From positions 62,001-126,000 of the forward strand of contig JAHFSA010000009.1 in assembly GCA_023265995.1 (NCBI GenBank): 64,000 nucleotides of DNA. The letters run 5' to 3'. This DNA is from Perlucidibaca sp. Lineage in GTDB: Bacteria > Pseudomonadota > Gammaproteobacteria > Pseudomonadales > Moraxellaceae. Position 1 is the first letter of the stretch, and each line of letters begins with the position of its first letter. The notes below the pieces were generated by a model. It saw nothing but the letters and a program-made list of their open reading frames with translations, was not told where the DNA came from and did no database searches. Made by a program: the position numbers and the translations under genes. Below, piece by piece: positions 16,801 through 42,950 of the stretch.

Positions 16801-17145
16801 TCAGGCAGCGTGCGAGACAGCCTCGGCAGCGACCAGAATGCTGCCTGCGCTTTCCTGCACGGCATAGACCGGAATCGACACCGAGGCGTCTTCCAGGCAG
16901 ATGCCGGTGGTCAGATCGAAGTGCTGTTTGTACACCGGCGAGGCCACCACGAGATGGCCCTGCAGGTTGCCGACCAGGCCACGCGAAATGACATTGGCGG
17001 CGGAGAACGGATCGAAGTTGCCGACCGCGTGCAGCGAACCATCGCGCAGGCGGAAGATGGCGACCTGGTGGCCGTTGACCAGCGCGGCCACGCCAACGCC
17101 GGGGATCAGTCTGTCAGCTGCGCAGACGGTAACGAAATCGGTCAT
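16801..17145 (-). CDS. nirD: Assimilatory nitrite reductase small subunit
   Basis: 114 residues, the usual NirD size. The start at 17145 is preceded by GAGGAG. It is a Rieske-like fold protein that partners NirB in reducing nitrite to ammonium with NADH. Visible marks are VNGHQVAIFRLRDG, VGNFDPFSAANVISRG and PVYKQHFDLTTGICLED. The cysteine and histidine ligands of true Rieske clusters are absent, as expected for NirD. It lies 11 bases after nirB. Confidence 0.95.
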   Translation of the reverse strand: MTDFVTVCAADRLIPGVGVAALVNGHQVAIFRLRDGSLHAVGNFDPFSAANVISRGLVGNLQGHLVVASPVYKQHFDLTTGICLEDASVSIPVYAVQESAGSILVAAEAVSHAA

Positions 17146-17156
17146 CTTGTCTCTCC

Positions 17157-19703
17157 TCAAACCGTCACGGTGTCGATCAGATCGGCACGCTTCTCGCTCG
17201 CCGTGGCCGGGCGGATCTGGCCGCGCTCCTCGACGAAGACGATGTTCTCGTCCTTGGCATCGCTGTTCACGAAGCTGGCGAAACGGGCACGAACTTCCGG
17301 CGTTTCGATGGCGGTCTTCCACTCGCACTGGTAGGTGTCGGCGACGTGCTGCATGTCGGCTTCAAGTTCGGCCGCCAGACCCAGCGAGTCGTCGATGACG
17401 ACCTGCTTCAGGTAGTCGAGGCCGCCCTCCAGGTTCTCGCGCCAGACGCTGGTGCGCTGCAGGCGGTCGGCGGTGCGCACGTAGAACATCAGCACGCGGT
17501 CGATGTACTTCACCAGGGTCTCTTCATCGAGATCGCTGGCGAACAGCTCGGCATGACGCGGACGCATGCCGCCGTTGCCGCAGACATACAGGTTCCAGCC
17601 ACGCTCGGTGGCGATGACGCCGATGTCCTTGCCCTGCGCTTCGGCGCACTCGCGGGTGCAGCCGGACACGCCGAACTTGATCTTGTGCGGCGAGCGCAGG
17701 CCCTTGTAGCGATTCTCAAGGCGGACAGCGAGGCCGACCGAGTCGCCGACGCCGTAACGGCACCAGGTCGAGCCGACGCAGGACTTCACCGTGCGCAGCG
17801 ACTTGCCGTAGGCGTGACCGGTCTCGAAGCCGGCAGCCACCAGCTCTTCCCAGATCGACGGCAGCTGCTCGACGCGGGCGCCGAACAGGTCGACACGCTG
17901 GCCGCCGGTGATCTTGGTGTAGAGACCGTACTTCTTGGCCACGGTGCCGACGGCGATCAGGCCGTCCGGCGTGACTTCACCGCCGGCCATGCGCGGGACC
18001 ACCGAGTAGGTGCCGTCCTTCTGCAGGTTGCCGAGGTAGTAGTCGTTGGTGTCCTGCAGGCCGGCGAGTTCCGGCTTGAGGATGTGGTCATTCCAGGTCG
18101 AGGCCAGGATGGACGCGGTGGTCGGCTTGCAGATGTCGCAGCCGTCGCCCTTGCCATGCTTTGCCAGCAGCTCGTCGAAGGTCGTGATCTTCTCGACCTT
18201 GATCATGTGGAACAGTTCCTGGCGCGAGTAGGCGAAGTGTTCGCAGAGGTCCTTCTTGACCTCGACGCCCTTCTTGGCCAGTTCGCACTTGAGGATCTGG
18301 CCGACCAGCGCGGTGCAGCCGCCGCAGGACGTGCCGGCCTTGGTGGCGGACTTGAGATCGCCGATCTCGCAGGCACCGGCCTCGATGGCCGCGCAGATGT
18401 CGCCCTTGCTGACGCTGTTGCAGGAGCAGATCTGCGCCGTGTCCGGCAGGGCATCGGCGCCCAGCGCCGGCGCACCGCCTTCGCTGGCCGGGAGGATGAA
18501 GCTTTCCGGATTGGCCGGCAGCTCCATCTTGTTGAGCATGAGCTGCAGCAGCGTGCCGTAGGCCTCGGCTTCGCCGACCAGCACGGCACCGAGCAGCAGC
18601 TTCTTGTCGGCGGAGACGACGAGCTTCTTGTAGGTCTCGGCGACTTCATCGACATAGGTGTAGGACAGCGCACCCGGCGTGGCGCCGTGAGCGTCGCCGA
18701 TGGAGGCCACGTCGACGCCCATGAGCTTGAGCTTGGTCGACATGTCGGCGCCCTGGAAGGCGTTGTCGATCTTGCCGGCGATGTGATCGGCGGCGACCTG
18801 GGCCATCTGGTAGCCCGGAGCCACGAGGCCGAAGATCTTGCCGCCCCAGAGCGCGCACTCGCCAATGGCGTAGATGTCCGGGTCCGAGGTCAGGCACTGG
18901 TCGTTGATGACAATGCCGCCACGCTCGCCCATGACCAGACCGCACTGGCGGGCCAGCTCGTCACGCGGACGGATGCCGGCGGAGAACAGGATGAGGTCGG
19001 TTTCCAGGCTGGAGCCGTCGGCGAAATTCATGGCATGGCGGGCAGCCTTGCCGTCGACGATCTCCTGAGTGTTCTTGCCGGTATGGACCTTGACGCCCAG
19101 GGTCTCGATCTTGCGGCGCAGCAGGCGACCGCCGCCATCGTCGACCTGCACGGCCATCAGGCGCGGAGCGAATTCGACGACATGCGTGTCGAGGCCGAGG
19201 TCACGCAGGGCCTTGGCGGCTTCGAGACCGAGCAGACCGCCACCGACGACGACGCCGGTCTTGGACTCGGCAGCGCCGGCCTTGATGGCTTCGAGGTCTT
19301 CGATGGTGCGATAGACCAGGCAGTGTTCGCGATCCTTGCCCGGCAGCGGCGGCACGAAGGGGAAGGAGCCGGTGGCCAGCACGAGCTTGTCGTAGGGCAC
19401 GTTCTCGCCGCTGGCGACCTTGACCACCTTGGCGGTGCGATCGATGGCCACGGCCCGGGTATTCAGGTGCAGGAAGACACCGGCGTCGGCGAAGAAATCG
19501 CCCTTGACCAGGCTCAGGTCTTCCGCGGTCTTGCCGCTGAAGTACGCCGACAGGTAGACGCGGTCATAGGCGGCACGAGGCTCTTCGGCGAGCACGGTGA
19601 CTTCGATACCGGCGAACCCGACGCTGTCTTCGACCAGCTGCTCCAGGAACTTGTGACCAACCATGCCGTTACCAATGACAACAACACGCTGCTTGCTACT
19701 CAT
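17157..19703 (-). CDS. nirB: NADH-dependent nitrite reductase large subunit
   Basis: 848 residues, full family length. The N-terminal FAD/NAD module has VVIGNGMVGHKFLEQL and VVGGGLLGLEAAKAL. A Bfd-type [2Fe-2S] domain follows (CSCNSVSKGDICAAIE ... TSCGGC). The C-terminal sirohaem/[4Fe-4S] half has SCVGSTWCRYG and SGCTRECAEAQG. It reduces nitrite by six electrons to ammonium in the cytoplasm. GGAGAG precedes the ATG at 19703, which overlaps the nasA stop (ATGA). Confidence 0.97.
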   Translation of the reverse strand: MSSKQRVVVIGNGMVGHKFLEQLVEDSVGFAGIEVTVLAEEPRAAYDRVYLSAYFSGKTAEDLSLVKGDFFADAGVFLHLNTRAVAIDRTAKVVKVASGENVPYDKLVLATGSFPFVPPLPGKDREHCLVYRTIEDLEAIKAGAAESKTGVVVGGGLLGLEAAKALRDLGLDTHVVEFAPRLMAVQVDDGGGRLLRRKIETLGVKVHTGKNTQEIVDGKAARHAMNFADGSSLETDLILFSAGIRPRDELARQCGLVMGERGGIVINDQCLTSDPDIYAIGECALWGGKIFGLVAPGYQMAQVAADHIAGKIDNAFQGADMSTKLKLMGVDVASIGDAHGATPGALSYTYVDEVAETYKKLVVSADKKLLLGAVLVGEAEAYGTLLQLMLNKMELPANPESFILPASEGGAPALGADALPDTAQICSCNSVSKGDICAAIEAGACEIGDLKSATKAGTSCGGCTALVGQILKCELAKKGVEVKKDLCEHFAYSRQELFHMIKVEKITTFDELLAKHGKGDGCDICKPTTASILASTWNDHILKPELAGLQDTNDYYLGNLQKDGTYSVVPRMAGGEVTPDGLIAVGTVAKKYGLYTKITGGQRVDLFGARVEQLPSIWEELVAAGFETGHAYGKSLRTVKSCVGSTWCRYGVGDSVGLAVRLENRYKGLRSPHKIKFGVSGCTRECAEAQGKDIGVIATERGWNLYVCGNGGMRPRHAELFASDLDEETLVKYIDRVLMFYVRTADRLQRTSVWRENLEGGLDYLKQVVIDDSLGLAAELEADMQHVADTYQCEWKTAIETPEVRARFASFVNSDAKDENIVFVEERGQIRPATASEKRADLIDTVTV

Positions 19704-22450
19704 GAACTCTCTCCGCATGTGGCCAGAATCTGCTTCAGCTCCGGCTGACAAGAACCGCAATTGGTGCCTGCCTTCAGGCAGCGGCCAATTGCGGCCACGC
19801 TATCAAGACCCTCGGCGGCAATGGCGCGCCGTATGGTCTTCTCCCCGACCGCGAAGCAGGCGCACACGGTGCGTCCGACATCGCTGGCGGGATCGGCGGG
19901 ACGGCCCGAAAGCAGCCCGCGTCGTGTCTGGTCATCGAGCACCTGGCCCATCTGGCTGGCAAGCCAGGCACGCTCCGGGACAGAGGCCGCATCGCGTGCC
20001 AGCATGAGCACGCCGAGCAGACGCCCGTCCTTCAGACAGGCTCTACGATACAAACCGCGTGCCAAGTCTGCGTATTCCAGCCATTCCAGGCCCTCCACAG
20101 GCAGCCAGGCATCCGCCAGAGCCAGCAGATCCGCGCTTTCGGCGCCTGCCAGCTCATGCCGCCAATGGCCGTCACCACGCACTGCCACGGCATAATCGAC
20201 CTCCGGCAGCGCCACAGCCTCCGCGCTCAGCCAGAAACCCTGCCAGGCCGGGGCCCAGGGCTTGATGGCCACAGGCGTGTGCTTGTTCTCGGGCTGCCCG
20301 GAAACCGGGTCGGTGACCGGATTAACCAGCGGGCCGACACGGCCGGCGCGGCTCAGTGCACCAGTCCAGTGCATAGGCACGAAAACCGTGCGCTTGAGCT
20401 GACCCGTACTGGACTGCACACGCGCCAGCATGCGACCCCAGCGTGTATGCAGCTCGGCGATGCCGCCATCGTCCAGACCCAGCGCCGCAATGTCGTCCGG
20501 ATGCAGTTCGGCGAAGGGTTCGCTCAGGTGCGCGAGCAGGCGCGGCGTCAAACCGGTGCGCGTCATGGTGTGCCACTGGTCGCGGATACGGCCGGTATTG
20601 AGCACGAAGGGATATTCGGCGCTGGTGGCGTTCTGCGGCAGACGCGGCTTGATCGGCAGCAGTCGGGCCTTGCGATCGGGCGTGAAGAAGCCGCCGTCAG
20701 CGAACAGGCGGGCCTGGCCATCGGGACGGCCGCGACGCACCGGCCACTGCACCGGCATCATGGCGTCATAGTCTTCCGGGCTGAAACCCGCCATGGCGCT
20801 GATGTCGAAGTCACGCAGGATGCCGCTGGCGGCATCGTTCTCGAAGCCCGACAGCTCGGCATGCTCGACGAAGACCTCGGCGGCGCTGTGGAAGGCGAAG
20901 GCCGGGCCGAAACCCAGTGCCTGGCCGACACGGGCCAGGATCCACCAGTCCGGCATGGCTTCGCCGGGCGGAGCCAGGAAGGCGCGCTGACGCGAGATGC
21001 GGCGCTCCGAGTTGGTCACCGTGCCATCCTTTTCACCCCAGCCCCGCGCCGGCAGCTTGATGTGCGCCAGACGGCTGGTGTCGGTATCGGCGATGCAGTC
21101 GGACACGATGACGCACTCGGCACCGGCCAGCGCCGCCTTGACGCGATCGGCGTCAGGCATGGAGACCACCGGGTTGGTACCGATGATCCAGACCAGCTTG
21201 ATCTCGCCGCTGTGCACGGCCTCGAACAGGTCGACGGCCTTGAGGCCGTTGTCCGTGGCCAGCGCCGGCGCCTGCCAGAAGCGCTGCACGATGTCGCGAT
21301 GGGCCGGATCGGTCAGCTCCATGTGCGCCGCCAGCTGGTTGGCGAGACCGCCGACTTCGCGACCGCCCATGGCATTGGGCTGGCCGGTGAGCGAGAACGG
21401 GCCGCAGCCCGGCTTGCCGATGCGGCCGGTGGCGAGATGGCAGTTGAGCAGGCTGTTGACCTTGTCGCTGCCGGCGCTGGACTGGTTCACGCCCTGCGAA
21501 TACAGCGTCATGGTGCGCGCGGTGGCGACGAACCAGCGATAGAAGGTGGCAATGTCGGCTTCGCTCAGACCGGTCACGGCCGCGACCTCGGCCAGCGAGC
21601 CGGCGCCCAGGCGGGCCTCGGCCAGCGCCACGCCGAAGCCGCTGGTGTGCTGCGCCAGATAGTCATGATCAATGGCGCCCTGCTCGGCCAGCCAGACCAG
21701 CAGGCCGTTGAACAGCCAGACATCGGTGCCCGGCTTCAGCGCCAGATGCAGGTCGGCGATTTCATTGGTCGCGGTCGCGCGCGGGTCGATGTTGACCACG
21801 CGCAGGCCCGGCCGGCGCTGCTTCTCGGCCTTGATGCGCTGATACAGGATGGGGTGGCACCAGGCCGTGTTGGAGCCGGTGAGGATGATCAGATCCGCCA
21901 GCTCCAGGTCTTCATAGCAGTTCGGCACGGTGTCGGAGCCGAAGGCGCGCTTGTGGCCGGCGACGCTGGACGACATGCACAGACGCGAGTTGGTGTCGAT
22001 GTTGGCGCTGCCGAGAAAGCCCTTCATGAGCTTGTTGGCGACGTAGTAGTCCTCGGTCAGCAGCTGGCCGGAAACGTAGAACGCCACCGAGCCCGGGCCG
22101 TGCGCGGCCTGCACGCGGCGAATCTCGCCCGCCACCGTGGCAATGGCGTCATCCCAGCTGGTGCGCTGGCCATGAACCTCGGGGTGCAGCAGGCGACCTT
22201 CGAGGTGAATGGTCTCGCCCAGCGACGAGCCCTTGGAACAGAGCCGGCCGAGATTGGCCGGATGGCTGCTGTCACCCTCGATGCGGACATGCCGGGTATC
22301 GGCATCCTCGACCGTGGCCAGCACGCCGCAACCCACACCGCAGTAGGCGCAGGTGGTCTGCACACTGCGCTCGTCCGGCGCTGCCGCGAGACGGATACGT
22401 TCCTGCACGAGCACAACCTGCCCGCCCGTCTTTTCAGGCTGCAATGGCAT
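19700..22450 (-). CDS. nasA: Assimilatory nitrate reductase catalytic subunit
   Basis: 916 residues of the molybdopterin oxidoreductase family. The N-terminal [4Fe-4S] motif reads CAYCGVGCGV with a downstream LCSKG. The body has SRLCMSSSVAGHKRAFG and SLTGQPNAMGGREVGGL, typical of NasA/NarB. The C-terminus carries an extra Bfd-like [2Fe-2S] domain (CACFAVGEKT ... TNCGSCQPEL). It reduces nitrate to nitrite in the cytoplasm with bis-MGD molybdenum. The ATG at 22450 has GGAGGG upstream; its first bases overlap the end of the preceding reductase gene. Confidence 0.96.
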   Translation of the reverse strand: MPLQPEKTGGQVVLVQERIRLAAAPDERSVQTTCAYCGVGCGVLATVEDADTRHVRIEGDSSHPANLGRLCSKGSSLGETIHLEGRLLHPEVHGQRTSWDDAIATVAGEIRRVQAAHGPGSVAFYVSGQLLTEDYYVANKLMKGFLGSANIDTNSRLCMSSSVAGHKRAFGSDTVPNCYEDLELADLIILTGSNTAWCHPILYQRIKAEKQRRPGLRVVNIDPRATATNEIADLHLALKPGTDVWLFNGLLVWLAEQGAIDHDYLAQHTSGFGVALAEARLGAGSLAEVAAVTGLSEADIATFYRWFVATARTMTLYSQGVNQSSAGSDKVNSLLNCHLATGRIGKPGCGPFSLTGQPNAMGGREVGGLANQLAAHMELTDPAHRDIVQRFWQAPALATDNGLKAVDLFEAVHSGEIKLVWIIGTNPVVSMPDADRVKAALAGAECVIVSDCIADTDTSRLAHIKLPARGWGEKDGTVTNSERRISRQRAFLAPPGEAMPDWWILARVGQALGFGPAFAFHSAAEVFVEHAELSGFENDAASGILRDFDISAMAGFSPEDYDAMMPVQWPVRRGRPDGQARLFADGGFFTPDRKARLLPIKPRLPQNATSAEYPFVLNTGRIRDQWHTMTRTGLTPRLLAHLSEPFAELHPDDIAALGLDDGGIAELHTRWGRMLARVQSSTGQLKRTVFVPMHWTGALSRAGRVGPLVNPVTDPVSGQPENKHTPVAIKPWAPAWQGFWLSAEAVALPEVDYAVAVRGDGHWRHELAGAESADLLALADAWLPVEGLEWLEYADLARGLYRRACLKDGRLLGVLMLARDAASVPERAWLASQMGQVLDDQTRRGLLSGRPADPASDVGRTVCACFAVGEKTIRRAIAAEGLDSVAAIGRCLKAGTNCGSCQPELKQILATCGESS

Positions 22451-23669
22451 CTTCGCCCTCCTCAACCACCTTTCCGAACATCAGCCGATCACGCCAGGCC
22501 GAGACATCGGTGCCCTCGCGGATCAGATCGAAATACCACGGACCATCCTGGGCGTCGCCATAGAGCACGGCACCCACCAGGCGTCCTTCATGCACGCAGA
22601 GCTTCTTATAGACACCACGCGCCGGGTCGCGAAACACCAGTATATCGGCCTCGGCATGGTTGAAGTCGCCAGCCGAGAAGAGCTCGACGCCGCTGACCTT
22701 GAGCGTGGTCGCGGTCGGCTTCTGCACGAAACGACCGATGCCCATGCCGGCGAGATGATTGGCGCAGACCTTGGCCTGCTCGTACAGCGGTGCAACCAGA
22801 CCGAACAGTGCACCACGATGCTGCACGCACTCGCCCACGGCATAAACGCGCGGGTCGAAGGTCTGCAGCGTGTCGTTGACCAGGATGGCCTTGTCGACCT
22901 GCAGGCCCATGGCACGCGCAAGCGCCACATTGGGGCGGATGCCGACGGCCATGACCACGAGATCGCAGGCCAGGAAGCTGCCATCCTTGAAATGGACGCC
23001 CTTGAGCTTGCCGGTTTCCGGGTCGTGCTCGATCGACGAGCTCAGCGCCGAGACCTTGAAGGCGATGCCCTTGGCTTCCAGCGCGGAGCGCAGCAGGCCG
23101 GCGGCCTCGACGTCGAGCTGGCGGTTGAGCAGATAGGCGAAGTCGTTGACCACGGTCACGTCGACACCCTGCCGGGCCAGGCCGTTGGCGGCCTCGAGGC
23201 CGAGCAGGCCGCCGCCGATGACGGCCACGCGCGGCTTGCCGACGGCGGCGCCAAGCAGACGATGGACGTCGGCGATGTCGCGGAAGCTGACCACGTCGGC
23301 GTGATCGTGGCCGGGCATGGGAATGATGAAAGGCACCGAGCCGGTGGCCAGCAGCAGGCGATCGTAGGCAATCGCCTCGCCCTGGTCGGTGTGCACGATG
23401 CGCTTGACGCGATCGACGGTATGCACGGTATGACCGGCGAGCAGCGTGATGTTGCGCTCGGCATACCAGCTCAGCGGATGAATGACGATATCCTCGAAAC
23501 GCTTCTCGCCGGCAAGCACCGGCGACAGCATGACGCGGTTGTAGTTGCCGTGCGGCTCACGGCCGATGACGGTGATGTCGTACGTGTCGGGAGCCAGCTG
23601 CAACAGCTCCTCGACAGTGCGCATGCCTGCCATGCCGTTACCGATGACCACCAGCTGCATTCGGGCCAT
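22434..23669 (-). CDS. NirB-N-terminal-like FAD/NAD oxidoreductase, probable electron donor to NasA
   Basis: 411 residues that match only the flavin half of NirB. They include MQLVVIGNGMAGMRTVEELL, LLLATGSVPFIIPMPG, the NAD-binding VAVIGGGLLGLEAANGL and the C-terminal VYAVGECVQHRG. No sirohaem cysteines follow. In other nitrate-assimilation clusters such flavoproteins (called NasB or NasC) pass electrons from NADH to the nitrate reductase. The overlap with nasA makes this the natural reading. The start could be 23669 or 23660. It is the first gene of the minus-strand operon under the sigma-54 promoter at 23707-23723. Confidence 0.87.
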   Translation of the reverse strand: MARMQLVVIGNGMAGMRTVEELLQLAPDTYDITVIGREPHGNYNRVMLSPVLAGEKRFEDIVIHPLSWYAERNITLLAGHTVHTVDRVKRIVHTDQGEAIAYDRLLLATGSVPFIIPMPGHDHADVVSFRDIADVHRLLGAAVGKPRVAVIGGGLLGLEAANGLARQGVDVTVVNDFAYLLNRQLDVEAAGLLRSALEAKGIAFKVSALSSSIEHDPETGKLKGVHFKDGSFLACDLVVMAVGIRPNVALARAMGLQVDKAILVNDTLQTFDPRVYAVGECVQHRGALFGLVAPLYEQAKVCANHLAGMGIGRFVQKPTATTLKVSGVELFSAGDFNHAEADILVFRDPARGVYKKLCVHEGRLVGAVLYGDAQDGPWYFDLIREGTDVSAWRDRLMFGKVVEEGEDAIAA

Positions 23670-23706
23670 GTGCCCAACCCCTGCCAAACCTGAGATGGCA
23701 TGCTCC

Positions 23707-23723
23707 AAGCAAGAGCCATGCCA
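23707..23723 (-). promoter_or_regulatory. Sigma-54 promoter (-24/-12) for the nas-nirBD operon
   Basis: Read on the minus strand this is TGGCATGGCTCTTGCTT. It matches the TGGCACG-N4-TTGCW consensus with one change and keeps GG-N10-GC. Predicted transcription start is near 23697, about 28 bases before the reductase start codon. It is the exact inverted copy of 23744-23760. Confidence 0.8.
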
Positions 23724-23740
23724 CGCACTGACTTGGTGCT
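23724..23740. promoter_or_regulatory. NtrC-like dyad between two divergent sigma-54 promoters
   Basis: CGCACTGACTTGGTGCT fits the NtrC pattern TGCACC-N5-GGTGCA at 9 of 12 defined positions, with the correct 17-bp length. It sits in the 20-base spacer between the two promoter copies. Enhancers usually lie farther upstream, so this could also be an accidental match or serve another regulator. Confidence 0.45.
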
Positions 23741-23743
23741 GCA

Positions 23744-23760
23744 TGGCATGGCTCTTGCTT
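23744..23760 (+). promoter_or_regulatory. Sigma-54 promoter (-24/-12) for narK
   Basis: TGGCATGGCTCTTGCTT carries GG at 23745-23746 and GC at 23757-23758 with ten bases between. The predicted start is near 23770, leaving a leader of about 38 bases before narK. There is one mismatch to the sigma-54 consensus. Confidence 0.8.
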
Positions 23761-23807
23761 CATGGGCTCACCGCCAGCATTGGCAATACTTCCGGAGTAT
23801 CCGTCTC

Positions 23808-25283
23808 ATGGCCTTCCGCTTCCCGCTGCCCTTGTTCAACTGGCAGGAGCCGCGAATCCGCACCCTCCATTTCACCTGGATGGCGTTCTTCGTCACCTTC
23901 CTGATCTGGTTCGCGCATGTTTCGCTGATGCCCATGATCAAGGAATCGATGCACCTCACCGACAAGCAGGTGAAAGCATTCCTCATTCTCAACGTGGCGC
24001 TGACCATCCCGGCCCGCATCCTCATCGGCATGCTGGTCGACAAGTACGGTCCGCGTCGCAGCTACAGCCTGCTGCTGCTGCTCTGCGGCTTCCTCTGCCT
24101 CGGCTTCGCCGCCGCCCAGACCTTCGAGCAGCTCGCCGTCATGCGCTTCCTGCTCGGCCTCACCGGCGCCGGTTTCGTCATCGGCATCCGTCTCGTCAGC
24201 GAATGGTTCCCGGCACGTGAAGTCGGCATCGCCGAAGGCATCTACGGTGGCTGGGGCAACTTCGGTGCGGCAGTGGCCAAGATCAGCATGCCCATCATCG
24301 CCGTCAGCGTCTTCGGCGGTGAATTCGGCTGGCGCTACGCCATCGCCCTGACCGGCGTGCTGGCCATCCTCTACAGCGGCATCTTCTATCGCAACGTGCG
24401 TGACACGCCCAAGGGCGCGACCTACTTCAAGCCCAAGAAGACCGGCGGCCTGGAAGTCACCAGCAAGGGCGACCTCGTGTTCTACATGCTGGTCAACCTG
24501 CCGATCTACCTGATCCTCTACGTGCTGGCCTGGCGCCTGTCGCCGAACGGCCTCGGCATCATCAGCCTGGCCTTCGCCGATGTCTGCTACGTCATCGTCA
24601 CCATCCTGATGGTCTGGCAGTCGTGGAAGATCTGGCAGGTCAACCGTCACCTGATGAACGAGGAAATCCCGGCCACCCAGCGCTACAAGTTCAAGCAGGT
24701 CGCCATCCTCAACATCGCCTACCTGGCCTGCTTCGGTTCGGAAATCGCCGTGGTCTCCATGCTGCCCATGTTCTTCGGTGAAACCTTCGGCCTGTCGCCG
24801 ATGGTGCTCGGCCTCGTGGCCGGCTCCTTCACCATCATGAACCTGGTGGCGCGTCCGGCCGGCGGCCTCATCTCCGACCGCATCGGTCGCCGCAAGGTGC
24901 TGGCCACCTGCCTGGCCGTGCAGACCCTGGGCTACGCCCTGCTGTCGCAGGTCAATGCCGGCTGGGGCCTCGGCCTCGCCATCGCGGTCACCCTCGGCAC
25001 CTCGGTGTTCGTGCAGGCCGCCTGTGGCGCCGTGTACTCGGTGGTGCCGCTGATCCAGCGCCGCATGACCGGCCAGATCGCCGGCATGGCGGGCGCCTAC
25101 GGCAACGTCGGTGGCGTGTTCTTCCTGACCGTGCTCTCCTTCGTCAGCCCGATGACCTTCTTCTTCGTCATCGCCGGCATGTCCGCCGTGGCTTTCGTCG
25201 GTGCCCAGTTCCTCGACGAACCGCGCGGCCACATGGTCGAAATCGACGAAGATGGCAACGTCCAGATGATTGCCGTGGAGTGA
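23808..25283 (+). CDS. narK: Nitrate/nitrite MFS transporter
   Basis: 491 residues with about twelve membrane spans. NNP-family nitrate signatures are visible as YGGWGNFGAAVAKI in the first half and GAYGNVGGVFFL in the second. The arginine-bearing helix includes GIRLVSEWFPA. It imports nitrate across the inner membrane, probably with protons or in exchange for nitrite. The ATG at 23808 has GGAG 10 bases upstream, inside a short hairpin. It is divergent from the nas-nir operon and followed at once by the phosphatase-kinase gene. Confidence 0.94.
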   Translation: MAFRFPLPLFNWQEPRIRTLHFTWMAFFVTFLIWFAHVSLMPMIKESMHLTDKQVKAFLILNVALTIPARILIGMLVDKYGPRRSYSLLLLLCGFLCLGFAAAQTFEQLAVMRFLLGLTGAGFVIGIRLVSEWFPAREVGIAEGIYGGWGNFGAAVAKISMPIIAVSVFGGEFGWRYAIALTGVLAILYSGIFYRNVRDTPKGATYFKPKKTGGLEVTSKGDLVFYMLVNLPIYLILYVLAWRLSPNGLGIISLAFADVCYVIVTILMVWQSWKIWQVNRHLMNEEIPATQRYKFKQVAILNIAYLACFGSEIAVVSMLPMFFGETFGLSPMVLGLVAGSFTIMNLVARPAGGLISDRIGRRKVLATCLAVQTLGYALLSQVNAGWGLGLAIAVTLGTSVFVQAACGAVYSVVPLIQRRMTGQIAGMAGAYGNVGGVFFLTVLSFVSPMTFFFVIAGMSAVAFVGAQFLDEPRGHMVEIDEDGNVQMIAVE

Positions 25284-25284
25284 C

Positions 25285-27000
25285 ATGGTCACCAACCTGA
25301 AGATTGCGGTCGCCCAGCGCTCGCAGGCCGGGCGCAAGCCCGGCAACGAGGATGCCCTCGGCATCCGCCTGCCCGCAGATACCCAGCACGGCAAAGGTGC
25401 CGTGCTGGTCATCGCCGACGGTGTCAGCAGCGCCGAAGCCGGCCGCCAGGCTGCCGAAGCCGCCGTTCAGGGTTTTCTCAGCGACTACTACGCCACTCCC
25501 GACACCTGGTCGGTGCAGACCTCGGGCGAACGCGTGATGACCGCGATCAACCGCTGGCTGCATGGCCGCGGTCAGCAGCACGCCGAAAACCAGGGCTGGC
25601 TGACCACCTTCACCGCGCTGGTCCTGCGCGGTCGCAGCGCCCACATCCTGCACATCGGCGATACCCGCGTGTACCGCCTGCGTGACGGGGTGCTGGAGCC
25701 GCTGACCCAGGATCACTGCACCCGCATCAACGCCGACACCATCTATCTCAGCCGTGCCCTCGGCATGGACTGGCGCATCGACATCGACTACCGCCATACC
25801 GACCTGCTGCCAGGCGACCTGTTCCTGACCAGCAGCGACGGTGTGCATGGCCACCTGTCGTCCGCCGACATCAAGCGCCTGCTCGGCGAGCACGGTGACG
25901 ATCTCGAAGCCTGCTGCGATGCCCTGCTGGAAACCGCACTGGCGCAAGGCAGCCAGGACAACCTGTCATGCCAGCTGGCACGCATCGAAGGCATAGGTCT
26001 GGATGATCACAACGAGATGGGCCTGCACTCGGCGCGTCTGCCGGTGCCGCCGCTGCTGCGGCCGGGGCAGATTCTCGACGGCTACCAGATCGAAGCCGAG
26101 GTGCATGCCAGCCCGCGCAGCCAGCTCTACCGCGTGCGCGACATCCGCAGCGGCAAGGTCTATGCGCTGAAGGCGCCGAGCGCCCAGTTCGAGAACGACG
26201 AGGACTATCGCGCGCACTTCGCCATCGAGGGCTGGATAGGTCAGCGCATCGATCATCCGCACATCATCCGCATCCATCCGCCGGTGCGCTCGCCGCAGTG
26301 CCTGTATCACATCATGGACTGGGTCGAGGGCGAATCGCTGGCCGGCTGGTACGCGCGCCAGAGTCATGTCGACATTGCCACCGTGGTCGGCTTCGCGCGC
26401 CAGATCGTCGCCGGCCTGCGCGCCCTGCATCGCCGCGACACCCTGCACCAGGACCTGAAGCCGGACAACATCCTGCTCTGCAAGGATGGCAAGCTGAAGC
26501 TCATCGACCTCGGTTCGGCGCGCGTCGCCAGCCTGCAGGAGCAAGGCCCGCGCGACGTCCTCGACCGCCCGGGCGCCGCCGACTACGCGGCACCGGAATA
26601 TGCCCTCGGCCTGGCCCGCGACGAGCGTGCCGACCAGTTCTCTCTGGCCATCACGCTCTACGAGCTGCTCACCGGGCAGCATCCGTATGGCGAGGACTAT
26701 GACCAGGCGCAGACGCCGCAGGCATTCCACCGCCTGCACTACGGCAGCGCCAGCCGTCACAACCCGCATGTGCCGCTGTGGCTGGATGCCGCCCTGCGCA
26801 AGGCCTGCTCCATCAATCCGGAAAACCGCTACGAGGCCCTGGGCGAGTTCCTGCTCGACCTCGAACGCCCCAATCCGGCGCTCACGCCAAATCAGCGCCT
26901 GCCCTGGATAGAACGTGATCCCGTGCAGTTCTGGCGCTGGCTGGCGCTGCTCGCAGTGGCCGGGCACGTGGCCTGGGTCGCGGCACTGCTGGCACGCTGA
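25285..27000 (+). CDS. Bifunctional PP2C-type phosphatase / Ser-Thr protein kinase with C-terminal membrane anchor
   Basis: 571 residues, starting one base after narK behind GGAG. Residues about 5-235 are a PP2C domain (KPGNEDALGI, VLVIADGVSS, ILHIGDTRVYRL, FLTSSDGVHG, SQDNLSCQ). Residues about 260-530 are a kinase: Lys296 in VYALKAPS, Asp390 in HQDLKPDNILL, and Asp408 in a DLG variant of the DFG motif. APEY and YELLTGQHPYG follow. A hydrophobic segment (WLALLAVAGHVAWVAALLA) closes the protein. Similar genes sit beside narK-type transporters in Pseudomonas nitrate clusters; the substrate is unknown. Confidence 0.92.
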   Translation: MVTNLKIAVAQRSQAGRKPGNEDALGIRLPADTQHGKGAVLVIADGVSSAEAGRQAAEAAVQGFLSDYYATPDTWSVQTSGERVMTAINRWLHGRGQQHAENQGWLTTFTALVLRGRSAHILHIGDTRVYRLRDGVLEPLTQDHCTRINADTIYLSRALGMDWRIDIDYRHTDLLPGDLFLTSSDGVHGHLSSADIKRLLGEHGDDLEACCDALLETALAQGSQDNLSCQLARIEGIGLDDHNEMGLHSARLPVPPLLRPGQILDGYQIEAEVHASPRSQLYRVRDIRSGKVYALKAPSAQFENDEDYRAHFAIEGWIGQRIDHPHIIRIHPPVRSPQCLYHIMDWVEGESLAGWYARQSHVDIATVVGFARQIVAGLRALHRRDTLHQDLKPDNILLCKDGKLKLIDLGSARVASLQEQGPRDVLDRPGAADYAAPEYALGLARDERADQFSLAITLYELLTGQHPYGEDYDQAQTPQAFHRLHYGSASRHNPHVPLWLDAALRKACSINPENRYEALGEFLLDLERPNPALTPNQRLPWIERDPVQFWRWLALLAVAGHVAWVAALLAR

Positions 27001-31429: not shown

Positions 31430-31450
31430 CATGCACTCCGATCACCAGGC

Positions 31451-31487
31451 AAAAAAAAACGCCCGCACCGCTTTCGCGATACGGACG
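31451..31487 (-). terminator. Leader terminator (attenuator) upstream of nrtA
   Basis: On the minus strand twelve consecutive pairs (three of them G-U) form around a GAAA loop. Stems are 31476-31487 and 31460-31471, followed by nine T at 31451-31459. It ends only about 20 bases before the nrtA start, so unregulated transcription should stop before the operon. Confidence 0.85.
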
Positions 31488-31497
31488 CCGTTGTCCG
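31482..31497 (-). promoter_or_regulatory. ANTAR-type hexaloop hairpin overlapping the nrtA leader terminator
   Basis: Minus-strand CGGAC-AACGGC-GTCCG. The hexaloop has A at position 1 and G at position 4, the signature bound by ANTAR proteins. Its 3' arm shares six bases with the 5' arm of the terminator stem, so the two structures exclude each other. NasT is encoded directly upstream. Confidence 0.65.
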
Positions 31498-31500
31498 AAA

Positions 31501-31564
31501 GTCGCCCCCTCTGGAGGAGGGCACGACAGATCAAATTGTGTGTCAGCCGCCACTAGCGGATGAC
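31501..31564 (-). promoter_or_regulatory. 5' part of nrtA leader RNA with two further hairpins
   Basis: The minus-strand leader begins near 31565. It can form GTCA-t-CCGC/GCGG-c-TGAC at 31542-31564, and GTCG/CGAC plus CCCTC/GAGGG at 31501-31527. One of these may be the first hairpin of the usual two-hairpin ANTAR target, but neither has a clean A1/G4 hexaloop in its most stable form. An AGTGGC hexaloop can be drawn in the first with a weaker stem. Confidence 0.4.
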
Positions 31565-31575
31565 ATCAGAGCTAA

Positions 31576-31591
31576 AGCATTTAGCGTGCCA
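31576..31591 (-). promoter_or_regulatory. Sigma-54 promoter for nrtABC
   Basis: Minus-strand TGGCACGCTAAATGCT keeps GG-N10-GC and differs from the consensus at one position. Predicted start is near 31565. Just upstream (31601-31620) is GCGCAC-N8-GTGCGC, close to an NtrC dyad but one base too long. Confidence 0.75.
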
Positions 31592-32237: not shown

Positions 32238-32253
32238 AGCAATCGCTGTGCCA
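32238..32253 (-). promoter_or_regulatory. Sigma-54 promoter for nasT
   Basis: Minus-strand TGGCACAGCGATTGCT matches the TGGCACG-N4-TTGCW consensus with one change and keeps GG-N10-GC. Predicted start is near 32227, 22 bases before the nasT start codon. Confidence 0.75.
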
Positions 32254-32350
32254 TGCGGCATCAAACCTGCATTAGAATGAGCCCCATGCGCGTGCGCCGA
32301 GCGCCCTCGAGCAGCGCGCAACCCGTCAACGCATCGCTCCAGGATTCACG

Positions 32351-42901: not shown

Positions 42902-42950
42902 CATTAGCCATTGGTAGTGACCCTATGGTCTTAGAGACCAATGGCTAATG
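42902..42950. repeat. 14-bp perfect inverted repeat between acs and the porin gene
   Basis: CATTAGCCATTGGT (42902-42915) and ACCAATGGCTAATG (42937-42950) are exact reverse complements around a 21-base spacer. The spacer contains smaller dyads, GACC-ctat-GGTC and GGTCT-tag-AGACC. It lies 66 bases upstream of acs and 62 upstream of the porin, a position that suits a shared operator. Confidence 0.85.

Follow-up and report, generated by a model that had tools for sequence, protein, structure and literature searches.

Introduction

Sigma-54 activators are described as looping enhancers. For NtrC, a review gives a minimum distance, the site having to lie at least 70 bp from the transcription start to activate, and places the E. 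coli glnA sites at about -90 and -140 (PMC7408454). In D. vulgaris, divergent sigma-54 operons that share an activator region are described, namely type III secretion operons with DVUA0100; for other activators the same study reports some sigma-54 promoters no more than 100 nt from the nearest predicted site, and a few sites that lie 40-70 bp downstream, which means that the distance of NtrC is not kept by every activator (PMC4641369). Nitrate transport, nitrite reductase and NasT genes are predicted to be under sigma-54 control across Pseudomonadota (PMC12316311).

Here we describe the nas/narK region of a Perlucidibaca sp. genome, which lies within a contiguous stretch of 64,000 nucleotides referred to below as the window. 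The same genes as in PMC12316311 are under predicted sigma-54 control here; divergent layout and activator distance are not mentioned in the accessible text of that study. The region has the same promoter element and the same NtrC dyad motif as E. coli glnAp2 and as glnA of its own genome, but whereas the glnA dyads of this genome are centred at -86 to -147, the nas/narK dyad is centred at -35/-38, between two promoters. In comparison with the divergent D. vulgaris operons, promoters and dyad together fill 54 bp. Among the matches listed in a search of titles and abstracts of open-licence literature, an NtrC site between touching sigma-54 promoters was not described, which does not prove its absence.

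Results

Two predicted sigma-54 promoters face outwards towards the nas operon and narK

The genes and elements of the region are as follows, in window coordinates.

16801..17256, minus strand: nirD, Rieske-type small subunit (PF13806)
17157..19703, minus strand: nirB, nitrite reductase large subunit (TIGR02374 over cut-off)
19703..22465, minus strand: nasA/nasC-type assimilatory nitrate reductase, catalytic subunit with a BFD-like [2Fe-2S] domain
22434..23669, minus strand: first nas operon gene, an FAD/NAD(P)H reductase that resembles the N-terminal half of NirB
23707..23723, minus strand: predicted sigma-54 promoter of the nas operon, TGGCATGGCTCTTGCTT, with TGGCATG at -24 and TTGC at -12
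23725..23739, no strand: putative NtrC-type dyad GCACTGACTTGGTGC, GCAC-N7-GTGC, centre 23732
23744..23760, plus strand: predicted sigma-54 promoter of narK, identical in sequence to the nas arm, 0 mismatches
23808..25283, plus strand: narK, nitrate/nitrite MFS transporter (PF07690 over cut-off)

The nitrate reductase falls below the cut-off of the NCBIfam NasC model and no model scores over its cut-off, and narK reaches 304.0 bits against TIGR00886, slightly below the cut-off of 311.7. Immediately past narK (25270-27000) lies a fused PP2C-type phosphatase and protein kinase gene; further to the right are an nrtA/nasS-like binding protein, an ABC transporter ATPase and an ANTAR (NasT-like) regulator.

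An earlier note, made from the letters of the window, had described a perfect 17-bp inverted repeat around 20 bases between the two transcription units, and both its position and its exact complementarity were confirmed: the letters of 23707-23723 return as an exact reverse complement at 23744-23760, after 20 bases, and when the pairing is taken further it comes to 20 of 21 positions. No other perfect 17-bp inverted repeat with a loop of up to 60 bases occurs in the 64-kb window, and 40 dinucleotide shuffles of it gave no perfect repeat of 14 bp or longer under the same loop limit. Next in length among the window's perfect inverted repeats, again with loops of up to 60 bases, is one at 42902-42950 that has 14-bp arms and a 21-base loop.

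Read outward, both arms match TGGCAYGNNNNTTGCW with 0 mismatches. They hold the full TGGCAYG-N4-TTGCW element, the nas-side arm having 0 mismatches to it, and equally TGGCAY-N5-TTGCW with GG and GC 10 bases apart. Exact TGGCAYGNNNNTTGCW sites number six in the genome (2.64 Mb, 11 contigs), and two of the six are these arms. The earlier note had read each arm as a sigma-54 element with one mismatch; the GG/GC element stands, while the mismatch does not, the base concerned being T in all six genome sites. With transcription starts placed by the -24 convention at 23697 (nas) and 23770 (narK), the predicted leaders are 28 nt to the ATG at 23669 and 38 nt to the ATG at 23808, the same lengths as had been given before. 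It can also be seen that the assignment of one arm to nas-nirBD and of the other to narK agrees with the arm directions and the recognised genes, as each element stands before a recognised gene and faces it. A distance of 25 bp separates the two -24 boxes. RpoN is encoded in the genome (511.2 bits, over the model cut-off), and an alternative sigma-70 promoter for nas or narK was rejected, nothing sigma-70-like being found in 23600-23860. Judged from the sequence, both arms are almost certainly sigma-54 promoters, and the earlier proposal of two such promoters pointing outwards is well supported by RpoN and by their conservation in relatives.

The strand across the inverted repeat folds well (z = -6.66), which would suit a structural repeat such as a cruciform, a terminator-like hairpin or a mobile repeat in place of promoters. 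We regard this as scarcely credible. The repeat lies upstream of both predicted transcripts, and the hairpin or terminator reading was rejected, no terminator-like site being found in 23600-23860. The 17-mer arm, allowing up to 2 mismatches, occurs at just two other places in the genome, which rules out a dispersed repeat. Finally, the promoter letters are kept without exact symmetry in 9 of 11 loci of the family, as set out below.

The promoters are kept in the family and the exact symmetry is not

A family search covered 199 genomes, of which 197 gave some match, and loci were taken from the best 30. Fourteen of these (L005-L018, the window's own and that of the sister species G017 included) have a divergent upstream narK of at least 67% identity and were used; L019 (narK match of 20% identity) and L020-L034 were dropped. 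Elements were scored with GG/GC required and up to 2 mismatches allowed, at -80 to -45 on the nas side and -330 to -80 on the narK side; L018 was counted as a miss in this search despite a sigma-54-like site at -205. On this scoring a sigma-54 element is kept on the nas side in 13/14 loci and on the narK side in 11/14, and the GG/GC pairs that the earlier note had looked to relatives for are there on both sides in 11/14, own and G017 included. By arithmetic, the -24 boxes are about 140-240 bp apart in nine of the 11 two-promoter loci, outside the genus.

Co-evolution of the two arms, also raised in the earlier note, was not supported, the pairing test giving p = 0.13 (n = 11 loci) and p = 0.24 when L006 was omitted. 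The arms are identical over 17 letters in two of the 11 loci, the window's own and L010, where they lie about 180 bp apart; in G017 they differ from each other at 2 of 17 positions, and in the remaining eight they match each other at 0-3 of 7 variable positions. Since identical arms are confined to 2/11 loci and the co-variation test gives p = 0.13, the exact symmetry looks incidental in this alignment.

Among seven genomes of the genus, a true narK ortholog was found only in the window's genome and in G017 (91% identity); four other genomes and a second place in G017 give weak matches, and G029 none. G017 has the same compact layout, with both promoters and GCACCAGCGCAGTGC (nas strand) between them, and the layout was found in these two species only. 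Its nas-side promoter is letter for letter that of the window and its narK-side promoter is TGGCATGGCACTTGCTA. The dyad keeps 8 of 8 arm letters while 3 of the 7 centre bases have changed, and outside the promoters and dyad much of the intergenic gap has diverged. The spacing of the dyad to nas is equal in both species (1 bp from the -24 box, centre at -35). Towards narK, 11 additional bases in G017 place the dyad centre at -49 in comparison with -38 in the window. A difference of 11 bp is about one helical turn, as expected if the facing of the site mattered, though it is a single event; whether natural enhancer indels keep to the helical repeat is a question that PMC4740811 set out to test.

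With -24 boxes just 25 bp apart, two polymerases or activator assemblies might be unable to sit together, so that one direction would fire at a time. This reading, which the earlier note had raised along with a single hexamer that would serve both promoters, draws on geometry. Both genes belong to one pathway, in which such a switch has no evident use, and the spacing is 11 bp longer in G017 and far wider in relatives; we consider mutual exclusion highly improbable.

The spacer holds an NtrC-type dyad whose motif is also found at glnA

The gap between the putative dyad and the -24 box is 1 bp on the nas side and 4 bp on the narK side, and the dyad centre is at -35 from the predicted nas start and -38 from that of narK. 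It is offset from the centre of the inverted repeat by 1.5 bp and is therefore no by-product of the arm symmetry. It has the GCAC-N7-GTGC form, and so the GC-N11-GC form described for NtrC sites (PMC8443478), and the genome has no other exact GCACTNNNTTGGTGC. Upstream of glnA in the same genome, a sigma-54 element is accompanied by GCCCTGTGTTGGTGC, GCACAATTTAAGTGC and GCACTGATTTGGCGC centred at -147, -117 and -86, with 0 mismatches at -117 and 1 mismatch at each of the other two; the motif thus has the classic layout at glnA, and 13 of 15 letters are common to the spacer dyad and a glnA site. The genome also has a gene for NtrC (752.6 bits, against a cut-off of 558.6), whose C-terminal 86 residues match 1NTC, the structure of the NtrC DNA-binding domain (6.8e-15). 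The NtrC-like dyad of the earlier note thus gains support from the glnA sites, from an NtrC with a matching DNA-binding domain and from conservation in G017.

Two further dyads with 1 mismatch lie within 22900-24700 of the window, at 23333 and 23606, and the locus may have imperfect distal sites. The one at 23606-23620 (-157 from narK) was rejected as a candidate; G017 has no counterpart within 1 mismatch, and the site is in conserved coding sequence. Elsewhere in the genome, a pair of NtrC-like dyads (G000:C3:125203-125287), one with 2 mismatches to GCACTNNNTTGGTGC and one with 1, is found about 1.2 kb upstream of ntrC, where the sole sigma-54-like element with up to 1 mismatch in the 2.5 kb examined is about 1 kb away; these dyads perhaps serve autoregulation.

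The dyad could instead be the site of another regulator or a chance match, with the promoters driven by sites that we did not recognise. Perfect GCAC-N7-GTGC dyads occur in the window at the chance level (5 observed, 5.0 per shuffle). What favours this one is where it lies, that G017 keeps it and that it resembles the sites at glnA. Two more predicted sigma-54 elements bear on the same question.

31576..31591, minus strand: weaker sigma-54-like element before the nrtA/nasS-like gene, 1 mismatch
32238..32253, minus strand: sigma-54 element TGGCACAGCGATTGCT before the ANTAR (NasT-like) gene, same element in G017

Within 300 bp upstream of these two elements no dyad common to both species was found, and the genus may therefore drive nitrate promoters without such dyads. 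Against another regulator or chance, we calculate a probability of about 5 in 10,000 that a dyad would fall within the 20-base spacer (6 positions at the window rate, by arithmetic), the dyad arms are kept in G017 while the centre bases changed, and the match to a glnA site extends to 13 of its letters. We judge this alternative improbable.

By eye, a conserved block TCATTCTAATGCAGGT precedes the ANTAR-gene element, which is letter-identical in G017 (32238-32300), and the leader of the nrtA/nasS-like gene (31432-31591) has a conserved G+C-rich stretch ending in a T run. A G+C-rich stretch with a T run at its end is the form expected of an ANTAR antitermination leader.

In the 12 relatives outside the genus (L007-L018), gap dyads with up to 1 mismatch are present in six and absent from six, and this absence from half of them favours another regulator or chance. 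They amount to nine sites, when about five would be expected by chance from the window rate of such dyads (79 per 64 kb). G013 has one dyad-like site with 1 mismatch, at -109 from narK and -151 from nas, and G047 has two, at -87/-135 from narK and -166/-118 from nas; all of these lie between the promoters at classic distances. A GGTGC half-site occupies one alignment column, by eye, in seven of nine aligned loci between L007 and L017. Because six of the 12 relatives have no dyad and nine sites compare with about five by chance, ancestral NtrC sites in this gap are weakly indicated, and an ancestral enhancer between the two promoters is plausible.

Close dyads and back-to-back promoters in other genomes

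The earlier note had remarked that an NtrC-like site so close to the -24 boxes would be unusual, and a survey of 369 genomes of the class (window's genome included, G017 not) bore this out. The exact dyad lies 0-5 bp before an exact TGGCAYR-N4-TTGC in one of 369 genomes, with two matches that are both at this locus; it lies 6-36 bp before an exact sigma-54 element in 4/369 (four matches) and 40-70 bp before one in 36/369 (39 matches). These counts, being of exact patterns that miss degenerate sites, are lower bounds, and reversed-pattern controls gave 0 among the matches listed. The four dyads at 6-36 bp are in other genomes and are probably chance, no nitrogen gene being recognised by eye. 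From these patterns close dyads look to be avoided, and the nas/narK locus appears to stand apart.

Back-to-back sigma-54 pairs with an 8-38 bp spacer occur in four of the 369 class genomes, own included, and a scan of GTDB genomes gave at least 117 such loci (outward elements, 8-38 bp between); the 80 listed by name include Burkholderia, Cupriavidus, Caballeronia, Rhodospirillales and Brevibacillus. By crude ORF calls, the 117 examined divide into 43 between divergent genes, 29 within an ORF, 26 tandem, 12 at an edge and seven convergent; as only 43 of the listed pairs lie between divergent genes, part of them are probably chance. When the spacer and six arm bases on each side of it were searched, one of the 117 listed pairs had a GCAC-N7-GTGC dyad, with 1 mismatch. 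Back-to-back sigma-54 pairs alone are accordingly not new, and it is the NtrC-type dyad that sets the nas/narK locus apart.

Nine of the scanned loci (L059, L078, L110, L147, L152, L157, L162, L166 and L171) have one exact palindrome in common, GCAAAAGACGTGCCA-9-TGGCACGTCTTTTGC; three of them are listed by name, as Prevotella, Palleniella and a Bacteroidales. This palindrome is probably a repeat or a regulator site rather than a pair of sigma-54 promoters.

Discussion

Our preferred explanation, held tentatively and at a little under an even chance, is that the nas/narK region represents a collapsed form of divergent sigma-54/NtrC control, in which one NtrC site would serve both promoters by short-range contact. 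On each arm a sigma-54 RNA polymerase would be bound as a closed complex, facing nas-nirBD or narK, and the single NtrC dimer site between the -24 boxes would be the activator site common to both. Under nitrogen limitation phosphorylated NtrC would gather at the dyad, next to either polymerase, and would remodel the adjoining polymerase by short-range contact without a DNA loop, with the result that nitrate uptake and reduction would be switched on together. The 140-240 bp stretch between the promoters of relatives, with any ancestral NtrC sites it held, would have been lost in this genus; we infer this direction of change by parsimony from a handful of genera. The narrower proposition that one NtrC dimer site activates two opposite promoters by direct contact and without a loop, at 35-38 bp from their starts, is possible but somewhat doubtful. 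It follows from the dyad touching both promoters, provided that the dyad activates.

In favour of activation, the dyad is perfect and is the only promoter-near dyad kept in both species, and nas genes fall in a P. stutzeri ntrC mutant (PMC8443478). Against it, a classical enhancer lies at a distance of about 70 bp or more, whereas the dyad centre is at -35/-38 in the window and -35/-49 in G017, inside the minimum given in PMC7408454, and an NtrC dimer at -35 should crowd the polymerase on either side. A classical enhancer also has two or more sites. In G017 the spacer dyad is the sole dyad with up to 1 mismatch within about 700 bp of the promoters, and one dyad makes a thin enhancer when glnA has three. 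The class survey likewise fits an exclusion of close sites.

The same closeness, within the 70-bp minimum, would suit a brake, NtrC bound at the dyad blocking one or both sigma-54 polymerases while activation came from NtrC in solution or from remote sites such as two dyads within nasA.

20358-20372 and 20377-20391, no strand: two perfect GCAC-N7-GTGC dyads in nasA

NtrC is able to repress, as at repressed promoters of E. coli, and low-affinity governor sites near glnAp2 have been proposed to limit output; the nas/narK dyad resembles these sites and NtrC-repressed promoters in being an NtrC-type site near a promoter (PMC3870243). The nasA dyads, 19 bp apart and about 3.3 kb downstream of the nas promoter, are kept in G017, and they are possible remote NtrC sites; G013 and G047 lack them although they encode the same motif. 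On the other hand, 16% of 165 fully conserved 12-codon windows are as alike as the nasA dyad codons, so silent sites there are not unusually conserved. Governor sites are weak, low-affinity extras beside strong enhancers (PMC3870243), whereas the spacer dyad is the best match and the sole promoter-near dyad in both species, a single perfect dyad with no strong distal pair in the gap, and the 700-bp search in G017 gave no other. We consider a brake unlikely, but it is the main rival of the contact reading.

If the contact reading is right, the activator would sit beside the polymerase on upstream DNA as sigma-70 class I/II activators such as CRP do; unlike CRP, NtrC is a sigma-54 AAA+ activator, of a class described as binding remotely (PMC5505868). 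Activation by contact would then amount to a class-II-like mode for an AAA+ enhancer-binding protein, one that evolved through deletion of the spacer between enhancer and promoter. A conserved pair of promoters that breaks the NtrC minimum on both sides makes the need for distance testable, by setting contact activation against an activator combined with a brake, and the relatives provide a natural spacing series for this, in which the promoters are separated by 140-240 bp at one end and by 20 bp at the other, an intermediate being 11 bp longer than the latter.
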